From a virus: DNA of 31,387 nucleotides. Position numbers and translations under genes: made by a program. The notes below the pieces were generated by a model, which was given only the letters and a program-made list of their open reading frames with translations, ran no database searches and was not told the origin of the DNA. The stretch lies in the IMG/VR virus record IMGVR_UViG_3300025684_000617, positions 1 to 31,387 of that record; one strand, written 5' to 3'. Below are positions 2,557 through 11,226 of this stretch, piece after piece. Position 1 is the stretch's first letter; each line of letters begins with the position of its first letter.

Positions 2557-2629
2557 CAGTCCTGACGGGAGTCGAACCCGCTCCACCGACCGTGACAGGG
2601 TGGTATCTTAACCGTTTGACCTCAGGACT
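2557..2629 (-). tRNA. tRNA-Asp (anticodon GTC)
   Basis: Acceptor AGTCCTG pairs with CAGGACT, the discriminator is G (expected for Asp), the anticodon loop is CTGTCAC, the T loop is TTCGACT, and CCA is encoded (to 2554). The anticodon stem CCACC/GGTCG has one mismatch. Confidence 0.9.
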
Positions 2630-3887: not shown

Positions 3888-4131
3888 GCCTAGATTTCGT
3901 TCTAGGCCGACGTGATCTCTTTAGGTCCTTGACTCTAAAGGATCAGCAGCTACTAGGCTGCTAATGCAAATTCTCCATCTGCGTCGACCAATCATCTCCT
4001 CTTACCGCTAATACTGCTGTCAAAAGCCGGTCACCCCCATATCTGTGAATATGTTAAAGAACTTAGTGGAGGTGGCGGGATTCGAACCCGCGTCCAACAA
4101 TCTGCCAATAAGTATCATCGACAATTAGTTT
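3888..4131 (-). ncRNA. ssrA: circularly permuted transfer-messenger RNA (tmRNA)
   Basis: The tRNA-like 3' part is encoded first (about 4131 to 4067): GGACGCGGG-TTCGAAT-CCCGC, acceptor CACCTCC and discriminator A. After a 28-nt linker (4066 to 4039) comes the 5' part from 4038: acceptor GGGGGTG and the tmRNA signature GGCTTTTGACAG. The acceptor strands pair over seven positions (one G-T), and CAGCAGT in the 5' part pairs with ATTGTTG just before the 3' T arm, as expected for helix P2. A tag frame follows (3982-3953), reading ADGEFALAA and two TAG stops. Hairpins CTTTAG/CTAAAG and GCCTAGA-ACGAAA-TCTAGGC close the coding piece. tmRNA rescues stalled ribosomes and tags the nascent peptide for proteolysis. 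Permuted, two-piece tmRNAs are known from alphaproteobacteria, some cyanobacteria and others. Only one possible pseudoknot region before the tag is visible, so the RNA is compact. CCA is not encoded. Piece ends are estimates. Confidence 0.88.
3953..3982 (-). other. tmRNA proteolysis-tag reading frame
   Basis: The resume codon GCA (3982) is followed by codons for DGEFALAA and TAG TAG. With the alanine from charged tmRNA the tag would be AADGEFALAA, comparable to the E. coli tag AANDENYALAA. The ALAA end is the classic ClpXP/ClpAP recognition signal. The bases before the resume codon (GGTCGAC) resemble the usual upstream context. Confidence 0.88.
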
Positions 4132-4567: not shown

Positions 4568-5185
4568 TTATTCATCCATTGCTCTTTGGATTAGAACTTT
4601 ACCGCGACGAACTCTGTTCTTTACAGTCTGTAGAGATACTTCATATTTCTCTGCAATATCTTCATACTTCATATTATGGAATAGACGATCTTGCATGATC
4701 TCACGGTACATTGGCTTAAGACTGTTAATACACGCAATTGCACTGTCGTAACGTTCTTGTAAATATGCATCTTCTTCGTAGAAGTCTGCTTCAGTCATGC
4801 GCTCTTCTGAGTCTAAGAGTAAGTTGTCGGCCATGTTAGTTGTATGGTTGCCTTCAGTTACTTCGATTCCGTAGTCTCGCATTGCATCTAGACTGTATTT
4901 ACGATTACGTTTACGAATATGACTTAGACATTCGTTGAATGCAATCTTGTAAAGCCATGTAGTTACCTGATACTCTGGTTTGTACTGATCTATCTTAGTC
5001 CAAAGCTTGGTCAGTGTGTTAGCTAAAACATCATCAGTTGCTTCTGAGTCTTTGATAATGTTGAAGATATAAGACTTAAGTCCTGGCTTTACTTTCTTGT
5101 AAAGTAGGTTATAGTCTTTTTCACTGCGTGAAGAATAAAAGTTTTCTGCTAATTCTCTGTAGCTCAAATCGGATGTCTTTGTCAT
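4568..5185 (-). CDS. ECF-like RNA polymerase sigma factor
   Basis: A sigma-70 family protein of about 205 residues with the two domains of extracytoplasmic-function sigmas. The sigma-2 part (residues ~20-100) includes LKSYIFNIIKDSEATDDVLA and TTWLYKIAFNECLSHIRKRN. The sigma-4 part (last ~60 residues) has a helix-turn-helix MKYEDIAEKYEVSLQTVKNR. It would direct host RNA polymerase to phage promoters. The start is set at ATG 5185: an in-frame TTG at 5221 lies inside the -7 box of the early-type promoter, so it cannot be in the transcript. The gene stands alone between that promoter and a terminator. By analogy with T4 gp55 it may serve late transcription, and a late-type motif precedes the structural genes. 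That link is inference. Confidence 0.88.
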   Translation of the reverse strand: MTKTSDLSYRELAENFYSSRSEKDYNLLYKKVKPGLKSYIFNIIKDSEATDDVLANTLTKLWTKIDQYKPEYQVTTWLYKIAFNECLSHIRKRNRKYSLDAMRDYGIEVTEGNHTTNMADNLLLDSEERMTEADFYEEDAYLQERYDSAIACINSLKPMYREIMQDRLFHNMKYEDIAEKYEVSLQTVKNRVRRGKVLIQRAMDE

Positions 5186-5212
5186 GTAGTTCTTTTTAGT
5201 TGTTGAATAGTT

Positions 5213-5260
5213 ACAGTACAAATATAATAAAAATATCTGACACTAAAAAACTTTTTTGCA
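5213..5260 (-). promoter_or_regulatory. early-type promoter, copy 3 (sigma gene)
   Basis: On the minus strand, TGCAAAAAAGTTTTTTAG, GTGTCAGATATTTTTAT and the -7 box TATATTTG (5226-5219), then TACTGTAAC. The transcript would start about 27 bases before the sigma start codon. Confidence 0.8.
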
Positions 5261-9056: not shown

Positions 9057-10241
9057 TTACCCTTTAGTGATTGTCATATGTCTAAAAAAAGTAAACCAGC
9101 CGTAACCAAACATCCTGCCCTTGATAACGTCAAGTAAGCTCTGATGATCTGTGTTAAAATGGTCGCTTGCATCTTCCATATTGTCGAATTCGCCTTCAGC
9201 GTGGTTGTATATTGTAACCCGCTCAAATATATTCAAGCTTGTTAAAAGTCGCTCCTGGCTACTTTCTGATAGCTCTTTCCAGGGCACAATTATATTTGGG
9301 CAGTCAAAATCATTAAAGAGAATAGTCTTGTCGTGATATAGTGTCTTAATCAACTCTTGATCTGCATCAGATATATCTGCAACCAGGCTTACTCGATCAA
9401 CCGAGTCTAAGAACTTACATGCTGAAATGGCTGATGTGTAATTGTAGAGATGATCGTAGACTGGAATATGGCCGGTTGGTTCCATATTAGAATACTTGTC
9501 TATATAGTAACTTGCGTTTGTGTTAAACTCACGATGCTCTTCAACTGACATCCAACCTGAGTCAGAACCATCTCTGCGTACATAAGTATACATCCTTCTT
9601 GGTATGTGCAGATGCTTACCTCTAGTTAAATTATAGAACGTGAATAGAGTATCTGTTGATGTTCTAGTATTCTTATTCATATGCATTCTACTTTCAGTTG
9701 GTCTACGCATACATCTAGCATGACCATACATATTATATGAAGATCTGTCTTTCCAGTGTTGGTTAACATCATTAGTAGAACGATAGTTAAATTCAGCTAG
9801 ATAATCTTCAGGTGGCTTTACAAAAAAGTACTGTTGCAAATGGCCTTCAACGTTAGTCATTGTTGAGTCGCCATAAATACTCATGACTTCCGGGTACATC
9901 TCAAAGTGATTGTGATAAGTCTGTAAGATGTTAGGGTCTATGATGTCGTCTGAATCCAGATCGAAATAGTAGTCATAATCTAGATGATGGAAGAAGTTCT
10001 GATAGAGATAGAGCTCACGCTTCTCTTTCACGTCGTAGTAAATGATGCGCGGGTCGTTCAGCTTTAGGATCTCATTCTTAAGCCAGGTTCTGTATTCTGG
10101 CTCTGCGCTAAAGTCATCACCAACGATTAAGGTCCAGTTCTGATAGGTCTGGTTAAGTACATTCTTAAACGTAAGTTCAAGATGCTCTGGTGGATTATTA
10201 TAGAATGACGTAACTAGTAGAAACTTCTTATCTTGATTCAT
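9057..10241 (-). CDS. family 2 glycosyltransferase
   Basis: 394 residues. The N-terminal 120 residues carry the GT-A fold: LLVTSFYNNPPEHLELTFKN, NWTLIVGDDFS, and a DxD-type metal/nucleotide-sugar motif in YYFDLDSDDIIDPN. The C-terminal half is unassigned. Such enzymes transfer a sugar from a nucleotide donor. In a phage the target could be modified DNA bases, a virion protein or host surface glycan. Its start overlaps the end of the GT9 gene by 14 bases, so both act together or are at least co-translated. Confidence 0.85.
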   Translation of the reverse strand: MNQDKKFLLVTSFYNNPPEHLELTFKNVLNQTYQNWTLIVGDDFSAEPEYRTWLKNEILKLNDPRIIYYDVKEKRELYLYQNFFHHLDYDYYFDLDSDDIIDPNILQTYHNHFEMYPEVMSIYGDSTMTNVEGHLQQYFFVKPPEDYLAEFNYRSTNDVNQHWKDRSSYNMYGHARCMRRPTESRMHMNKNTRTSTDTLFTFYNLTRGKHLHIPRRMYTYVRRDGSDSGWMSVEEHREFNTNASYYIDKYSNMEPTGHIPVYDHLYNYTSAISACKFLDSVDRVSLVADISDADQELIKTLYHDKTILFNDFDCPNIIVPWKELSESSQERLLTSLNIFERVTIYNHAEGEFDNMEDASDHFNTDHQSLLDVIKGRMFGYGWFTFFRHMTITKG

Positions 10242-11226
10242 ATACCTCTAATATTTTCATTAAGACTTGGTCAGGACTAGGCTGACATTTAAACTCTGTA
10301 AATCCTTCGGCGCATTCAGGTACATAGTGTATTCCGTTGATGCTGCCCCATTCTTTAACTGAGTATTTTGGATCAGATGCACAGAAGATCTTACACTCAC
10401 CGCCGATATAATGAAACTTATAGTCTTGTGAGCCATTACGCCATGGTGCAATCTTTTCCGGTCTAATTGAACTACCTATGGTAAAGATCTCAGAGTCAGT
10501 TGTACCTGCAACATGCATTGGTCCGGCATCAAAAGTTACTAGACCGTATGCGTTATTCAAGATGTGCCAAAGTTCACTGATTGGGCTATCGGTAAGATCA
10601 CAGTAGTTTAGATCCACGCCTTCAAGCTGGATTGTATTCTTATCTAAGTGGCCGTTAAATGTAGCCTCTTTATGACTCATACCAATCGTTACAATCTTAA
10701 AGTCAGTATGTTTTTTGACAAGGTCAACCATACGCTGCCACTTTTGAATCGGCCAAGTTCTTGAAGGCCAGTTCTCTGTAACGTGAAAGACCAGATAGTT
10801 CTTGTCTATCTTAGCTGCTCTTTCACTGATTGGATCTGGAATAAACTCACATTGTAATTCATCTGGGTATAAGTACATACCAACGCCCATTGCATGAAGT
10901 TGTCTAGCTTCTATATTGTGCAATTTCATTTCAATTGCTCTATTGTAGAAGTTATCACTAGCCATACCATAATTGGTCTTGATAAACTGGTTGTAAGTCT
11001 CAAAGATTTCAGCCCATTCACCAGGCCATTCTTCTGTGTAAGGTATGATATTGTCTACATAAGGACTATTCTTAAAGATCTCCGCTCTGTGGGTCATCAC
11101 GTCAATCTTATGTCCATAAGAGAGTGCTACCTTTTTAATCGTAGGAGTCGAGCACAGAGTGTCTCCAAGTGGCTTACACGATACCTTAACGAGTACTCGT
11201 TTATTGTTAGGTCCTAGTTCTAACAT
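10228..11226 (-). CDS. family 9 (heptosyltransferase-like) glycosyltransferase
   Basis: 332 residues with the GT9 two-domain GT-B layout. The N domain has KPLGDTLCSTPTIKK (usual GDxxxxTP motif). The C domain has WPIQKWQRMVDLVKKHTDFK, the donor-site motif VTFDAGPMHVAG and SEIFTIGSSIRPEKIAPW. Family members move ADP-heptose or related sugars onto lipopolysaccharide core. Phage copies are rarer; surface modification to block superinfection or glycosylation of virion proteins are options. Flanked by the KTSC-domain gene and the GT2 gene with overlaps on both sides. Confidence 0.85.
   Translation of the reverse strand: MLELGPNNKRVLVKVSCKPLGDTLCSTPTIKKVALSYGHKIDVMTHRAEIFKNSPYVDNIIPYTEEWPGEWAEIFETYNQFIKTNYGMASDNFYNRAIEMKLHNIEARQLHAMGVGMYLYPDELQCEFIPDPISERAAKIDKNYLVFHVTENWPSRTWPIQKWQRMVDLVKKHTDFKIVTIGMSHKEATFNGHLDKNTIQLEGVDLNYCDLTDSPISELWHILNNAYGLVTFDAGPMHVAGTTDSEIFTIGSSIRPEKIAPWRNGSQDYKFHYIGGECKIFCASDPKYSVKEWGSINGIHYVPECAEGFTEFKCQPSPDQVLMKILEVYESR

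Follow-up and report, generated by a model that had tools for sequence, protein, structure and literature searches.

A circularly permuted tmRNA gene lies on the minus strand, at ~4130–3888, of a viral DNA stretch of 31,387 nucleotides (IMG/VR record IMGVR_UViG_3300025684_000617, positions 1–31,387; hereafter the window). Judged from its sequence and that of its relatives, the gene probably specifies a working phage-encoded tmRNA that consists of two paired pieces and uses host machinery.

A permuted tmRNA gene within a tRNA array

The RF04321 model (tmRNA_permuted), which merges the alpha, beta, and cyanobacterial permuted tmRNA lineages, matched the window gene with 56.8 bits, above its gathering cut-off of 47 (E = 1e-8, for the full window, both strands, and all 4227 Rfam families). 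The one-piece model RF00023 reached 41.5 bits at the same place by aligning to the 3′ end alone. The tmRNA stretch has a fold z-score of −3.7, with 0 of 200 shuffles equally good. ARAGORN called no tmRNA at 4130–3888 of the window; this program does detect permuted tmRNAs in other phages, but a gene of the window type escapes it, although it is the usual annotation tool.

Along the minus strand, on which all features of the gene and its neighbors are encoded, the order is tRNA-Asn (4206–4132), acceptor piece, 28-nt linker, coding piece, and tRNA-Leu(UAA) (3883–3798), the two tRNAs standing directly upstream and downstream of the tmRNA. Both neighbors were called by ARAGORN and Rfam, which together place the tmRNA gene within an array of >20 tRNA genes. 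One tRNA at 2557–2629 (minus) was found in the Rfam search (48 bits) and is not in the ARAGORN output.

The acceptor piece (4131–4067), encoded first and corresponding to the 3′ part of the mature tmRNA, was delimited from the RF04321 match, the RF00023 3′-end match, helices, and sequence. It contains the 3′ strands of P2, the T-arm and 3′ acceptor strand (4095–4068), and the discriminator A4067; its probable 5′ end was placed from the spacer after tRNA-Asn. CCA is absent from the window copy. The intervening linker (4066–4039) would be removed in the mature RNA, as in known permuted tmRNAs; its length varies in homologues (28, 28, 19, 18, and 20 nt) and the flanking sequence is conserved. The coding piece starts at G4038 with the 5′ acceptor strand GGGGGUG (4038–4032), followed by the D-loop segment ACCGGCUUUUGA (4031–4020), which is Bacteroidota-like with one extra base according to a genome scan and D-loop comparison, and by the coding-side strands of P2 (4019–3987), assigned from pairing in the family.

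The acceptor stem, GGGGGUG/CACCUCC, is paired at 7/7 positions between 4038–4032 and 4074–4068 and includes G3–U70 (G4036–U4070), the alanine identity pair. P2 consists of three segments of 7, 7, and 10 pairs, each fully paired: P2a, CAGCAGU (4019–4013)/AUUGUUG (4101–4095); P2b, CGGUAAG (4007–4001)/CUUAUUG (4112–4106); and P2c, GAUGAUUGGU (3996–3987)/ACUAAUUGUC (4129–4120). A T-arm with a TTCGA loop and a D-loop without a D stem are present in the RF04321 and RF00023 alignments. The resume codon GCA (3982–3980) opens the tag frame ADGEFALAA (GCA…GCC, 3982–3956), which is found by translation and matched in homologues and is followed by two stops, TAG TAG (3955–3950). These stops lie inside the loop of a P5-like hairpin (3962–3957/3950–3945), where the last base of the second stop is also the first to pair. 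Between P2c and the resume codon there are only 4 nt, too few for the usual pseudoknot PK1 at that place, so that the efficiency of resumption is uncertain. Beyond P5, the MFE and centroid folds contain a long hairpin, GAUCCUUUAG…CUAAAGAGAUC (3944–3915), with counterparts recognized by eye in L201 and L224. A terminal hairpin, GCCUAGA-ACGAAA-UCUAGGC (3907–3888), is seen in the alignment, the sequences, and the fold; its loop ACGAAA is common to the whole family, and a T run follows it in the L053 and L485 types.

A preliminary description, made from the letters of the window, had proposed a permuted tmRNA at 3888–4131, and every feature that it named is present, on a strand that it had left unstated. 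The 28-nt linker is found in the sequence, the acceptor strands and the P2 helix given there as CAGCAGT/ATTGTTG pair across the break at 7/7 positions each, translation yields the tag and both stops, and the covariance search suggested there returns the permuted model above its cut-off.

Conservation in related phages

A motif scan and protein-guided searches identified homologues on nine further IMG/VR viral contigs (loci L201 [G001, 176 kb], L222/L207, L223, L224/L202, L077/L203, L053, L485, L486, and L487). All nine score above the RF04321 cut-off, at 60 to 76 bits (G001, 67.6; G013, 62.7; G019, 60.2; G049, 67.4; G050, 67.6; G491, 72.8; G554, 76.1; G555, 72.8; G556, 73.1); the tmRNAs of L201 and L223 are identical, as are those of L053 and L486. 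Of the 24 pairs of P2, every family member retains at least 23, with both-side changes at 9 positions and one-side changes at 9 more, counts that derive from seven distinct rows, some closely related, and that therefore reflect sequences more than events. The both-side changes fall at 5/7 positions of P2a, where pairing is never lost, 3/10 of P2c, and 1/7 of P2b. Since the MAFFT alignment (A1) sets the L053-group D-loop one base out of place, pairs were counted by explicit register. Pair 5 of the acceptor stem is exchanged from G-C to A-U in homologues, and the stem is kept in all distinct members. The homologous tags read ANDNFALAA or ANDEFALAA; FALAA and the stop are retained, and the LAA codons differ only synonymously. 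Because the helices keep paired changes and the tags keep FALAA through synonymous changes, the window tmRNA reads as a maintained gene, not a relic.

The L201 locus has the same gene order, including tRNA-Asn upstream and tRNA-Leu(UAA) downstream, and the tRNA-Leu(UAA) neighbor is also common to L202 and L203. Many relatives (G020, G026, G033, and G051), possibly fragments, contain no tmRNA of either kind over cut-off; the permuted tmRNA is an accessory gene.

The phage and its probable host

The window encodes a T4-type terminase, a tail sheath, a clamp loader, and a sigma factor, gene content that identifies this marine phage as a T4-like myovirus. The sigma-70-like factor (4568–5221, minus) adjoins the tRNA array and is a good marker of this phage group. 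The nearest phage terminases include those of LR756500 (44%), Tenacibaculum PTm1, phage PAU, Flavobacterium MaF61, and Prevotella Lak. A Shine–Dalgarno-like motif was found for 1 of 26 window genes, and leaders are A-rich; in Bacteroidota, Shine–Dalgarno motifs are few and leaders are A-rich. Terminase neighbors, Shine–Dalgarno scarcity, and the D-loop point to Bacteroidota as the probable host. Both the T4-like assignment and the probable host agree with the preliminary description.

Two observations concern these phages apart from the permuted gene. The huge phage LR756500 (L231) has a one-piece tmRNA at 94509–94921 with the tag frame GNNAEMRMAA, and two neighboring glycosyltransferase genes, belonging to families 2 and 9, stand near phage structural genes at 9057–11226 (minus) of the window.

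Bacteroidota affinity and origin of the permutation

The 5′ signature GGGGNNGACCGG N{1,4} TTGACAGC was scanned across the genomes of 84,980 species. Among the matches listed, almost all were from Bacteroidota and mostly visibly one-piece, and the few non-Bacteroidota titles among them mostly had no tmRNA there. A D-loop pattern preceded by CTCCA matched no bacterial genome. In a comparison of some 13 bases, which is accordingly weak, the best similarity of the window-family D-loop was 0.92 to Bacteroidota one-piece tmRNAs, 0.79 to TCGAC-type permuted phage tmRNAs, and 0.67 to alphaproteobacterial two-piece tmRNAs.

Bacteroidota cells themselves have one-piece tmRNA: RF00023 matched 118 of 118 genomes tested, 114 of them above cut-off. 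Under strict filters, RF04321 exceeded its cut-off in 1 of 395 Bacteroidota genomes, and this copy (L440 9945–10342; G307 C1; tag GKVIQMNNAPVRLAA) belongs to an integrated phage, adjoining phage polymerase, DnaB-like helicase, and Sak4 genes in a genome with a one-piece tmRNA of its own (160 bits). Since the filtered scan gave this single copy, situated among phage genes, the idea of permuted tmRNA being widespread in Bacteroidota cells was rejected. Two further candidates were set aside as one-piece genes upon inspection, namely L368, a subthreshold RF04321 match, and L489, a pattern match with a chance CTCCA upstream.

Descent from an alphaproteobacterial two-piece tmRNA was rejected by T-arm and D-loop. 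The window T-arm is GGGTTCGAATCCC, as opposed to the alphaproteobacterial GGGGGCGGTACCC type, and the D-loop, CCGGCUUUUGAC, carries one extra base and contrasts with …AGGAUCGAC; neither alphaproteobacterial feature is found in the window tmRNA. Another permuted tmRNA, in G052 (L244 ~900–1065; contig shared with L444), stands beside tRNA-Leu and has the D-loop GAATGGTATCGACAG and the tag frame DEQLLAAA. Its first 19 bases are identical to the Bacteroidota one-piece gene L465, and the sigma factor of this phage is 75% identical to that of the window. We tentatively entertain, with less than even confidence, that one-piece Bacteroidota tmRNAs became permuted separately in Bacteroidota phages, perhaps on several occasions. 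If so, phages, beyond three cellular lineages, would also be a source of split tmRNA genes. It is also possible that the window family came from another permuted phage lineage and changed later, since the L053/L485 D-loop (ACCAGGCUUUUGAC) approaches that of L016, a permuted tmRNA gene from a phage (ACCAGGCUUCGAC; tag ANDELFALAA).

Permuted tmRNAs thus circulate in the phages of a phylum in which the cells themselves carry the one-piece form. Should this be confirmed, the host tmRNA and the phage tmRNA would differ in architecture and yet work in a single cell with the same SmpB and ribosomes, and such a cell would be a natural test of whether splitting of the RNA matters. Renewed permutation in phages likewise becomes a testable question.

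Proposed function and alternatives

In Caulobacter-type two-piece tmRNA, tRNA-processing enzymes cut a precursor into pieces that remain paired (PMC9004378, PMC11915505). For the window tmRNA, we infer how it is processed and charged, that it uses SmpB, when it acts, and what the phage gains, along the following course. The tRNA array, including the tmRNA, would be transcribed as a single precursor, which host tRNA-processing enzymes, by analogy, would cut at G4038 and around A4067, with the linker discarded and CCA added; location in a tRNA array fits cutting by such enzymes. Pairing in the acceptor stem (7 bp) and in P2 (about 24 bp) would hold the two pieces together. Host AlaRS would charge the RNA via G3–U70, and host SmpB and EF-Tu would deliver it to ribosomes that have stalled at the end of a broken mRNA. 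No SmpB was recognizable in the phages tested, so host SmpB would be needed. Translation would resume at GCA, appending (A)ADGEFALAA, and the tagged product would be degraded by host ClpXP-type proteases. The benefit to the phage may be that ribosomes are kept free while infection cuts mRNA; the preliminary description had suggested a role late in infection. The proposal is weakened by the need for host SmpB, by the short spacing before the resume codon, and by the relatives that contain no tmRNA over cut-off.

Three other roles or fates were weighed against this working tmRNA. A change of tag might be the main role, the phage-specific ADGEFALAA steering or slowing proteolysis in comparison with a GENNYALAA-like host tag. 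The A-initial window tag is indeed unlike most Bacteroidia tags, which are G-initial, but it still has the ALAA end, the usual degradation signal, and the Ala-initial tags ANDNYALAA, ADDYSYAMAA, and AENNYALAA exist in the phylum Bacteroidota; we consider a tag change unlikely to be the main role. An inhibitor whose tRNA-like domain sequesters host SmpB or AlaRS, blocking host trans-translation, would suit a phage without SmpB of its own, and mycobacteriophage DS6A has a tRNA-like RNA, lacking a tag, for which the same has been proposed (PMC4131195, PMC11915505). A pure decoy, however, needs neither a tag frame with its resume codon and stop nor a P5-like hairpin, all of which are kept here, nor the restriction of FALAA changes to synonymous ones, which makes inhibition quite improbable.

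That the gene is a functionless, decayed or hitch-hiking fragment of a host gene, for example from imprecise excision, appears highly improbable. Integration is common at tmRNA genes (PMC9004378), but this gene is complete, no integration remnant was seen, and paired changes, a conserved tag, and the tRNA-array setting extend across ten contigs. The preliminary description had named an intact one-piece version elsewhere as the sign of a decayed copy; none over cut-off appeared in the 176-kb relative G001, and a decayed copy was rejected by this result together with covariation and tag conservation.

Comparison with known tmRNAs

The window gene shares with the permuted tmRNAs of RF04321 the gene order, the linker, the split tRNA-like domain, P2 pairing, and a tag ending in LAA, but the window family scores 57–76 bits, as compared to 115–164 in Alphaproteobacteria. 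Mycobacteriophage DS6A likewise carries a phage-borne tRNA-like domain, but its tmRNA has no tag part, whereas the window gene has a full tag and a P5-like hairpin. Bacteroidota cells and Cellulophaga phage Calle_1 have tmRNAs with the same D-loop type (ACCGG/ACTGG…UUUUGAC), which differ from the window tmRNA in being unpermuted, about 360–400 nt long, and mostly G-initial in their tags. Apparent long tag frames of ~30 and ~44 codons were observed in Calle_1 (L507, MT732432 42950–43310) and L489 (337–556), respectively, that of the Calle_1 one-piece tmRNA being without an LAA end. The crAss-like phage cr125_1 (L225, NC_055900.1 87913–88362), a Bacteroidota-type phage, also has a permuted tmRNA, annotated merely as SsrA, with the D-loop GGTTTTGACAGC; it is unlike the window tmRNA in that it scores 46.3 bits, has a linker of near 180 nt and a tag frame that begins with G, and comes from a phage of another order.

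Two-piece tmRNAs of marine phages, such as OM43 phage Melnitz, are likewise permuted ssrA genes in T4-like phages (PMC9004378). That 2022 survey reported 53 phage two-piece tmRNAs found by ARAGORN, T4-like myophages included, 50 of them from marine or aquatic samples, with alpha, cyano, or gamma assignments (PMC9004378), whereas the window family is missed by ARAGORN and has Bacteroidota-like features. The main search of the tmRNA database was by ARAGORN and BLASTN, and because both this search and the 2022 survey relied on ARAGORN, families like that of the window are probably undercounted. A strict pattern returned at least 119 stretches from IMG/VR, of which at least ~106 read as permuted tmRNAs. 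A large group of marine phage contigs (L094, L106, L038, L441, L443, and others) carries permuted tmRNAs with the D-loop ACTGGATTTGACA and the tag GEQVE(M/L)AMAA, for which no similar tmRNA was found in the GenBank phage collection.

A search of main text in the open-access literature found no description of a permuted tmRNA in Bacteroidota phages. The preliminary description had called such a gene in a T4-like phage unusual, which does not hold for phages as such, permuted tmRNAs being known in them, T4-like phages included, but does hold for the Bacteroidota setting and the sequence family. Permuted tmRNA in marine phages is already published, and the broad idea is not new (PMC9004378); what is new is the setting in Bacteroidota, the variant D-loop, and the very short distance between P2 and the tag, which look like a previously unrecorded variant of the permuted tmRNA.
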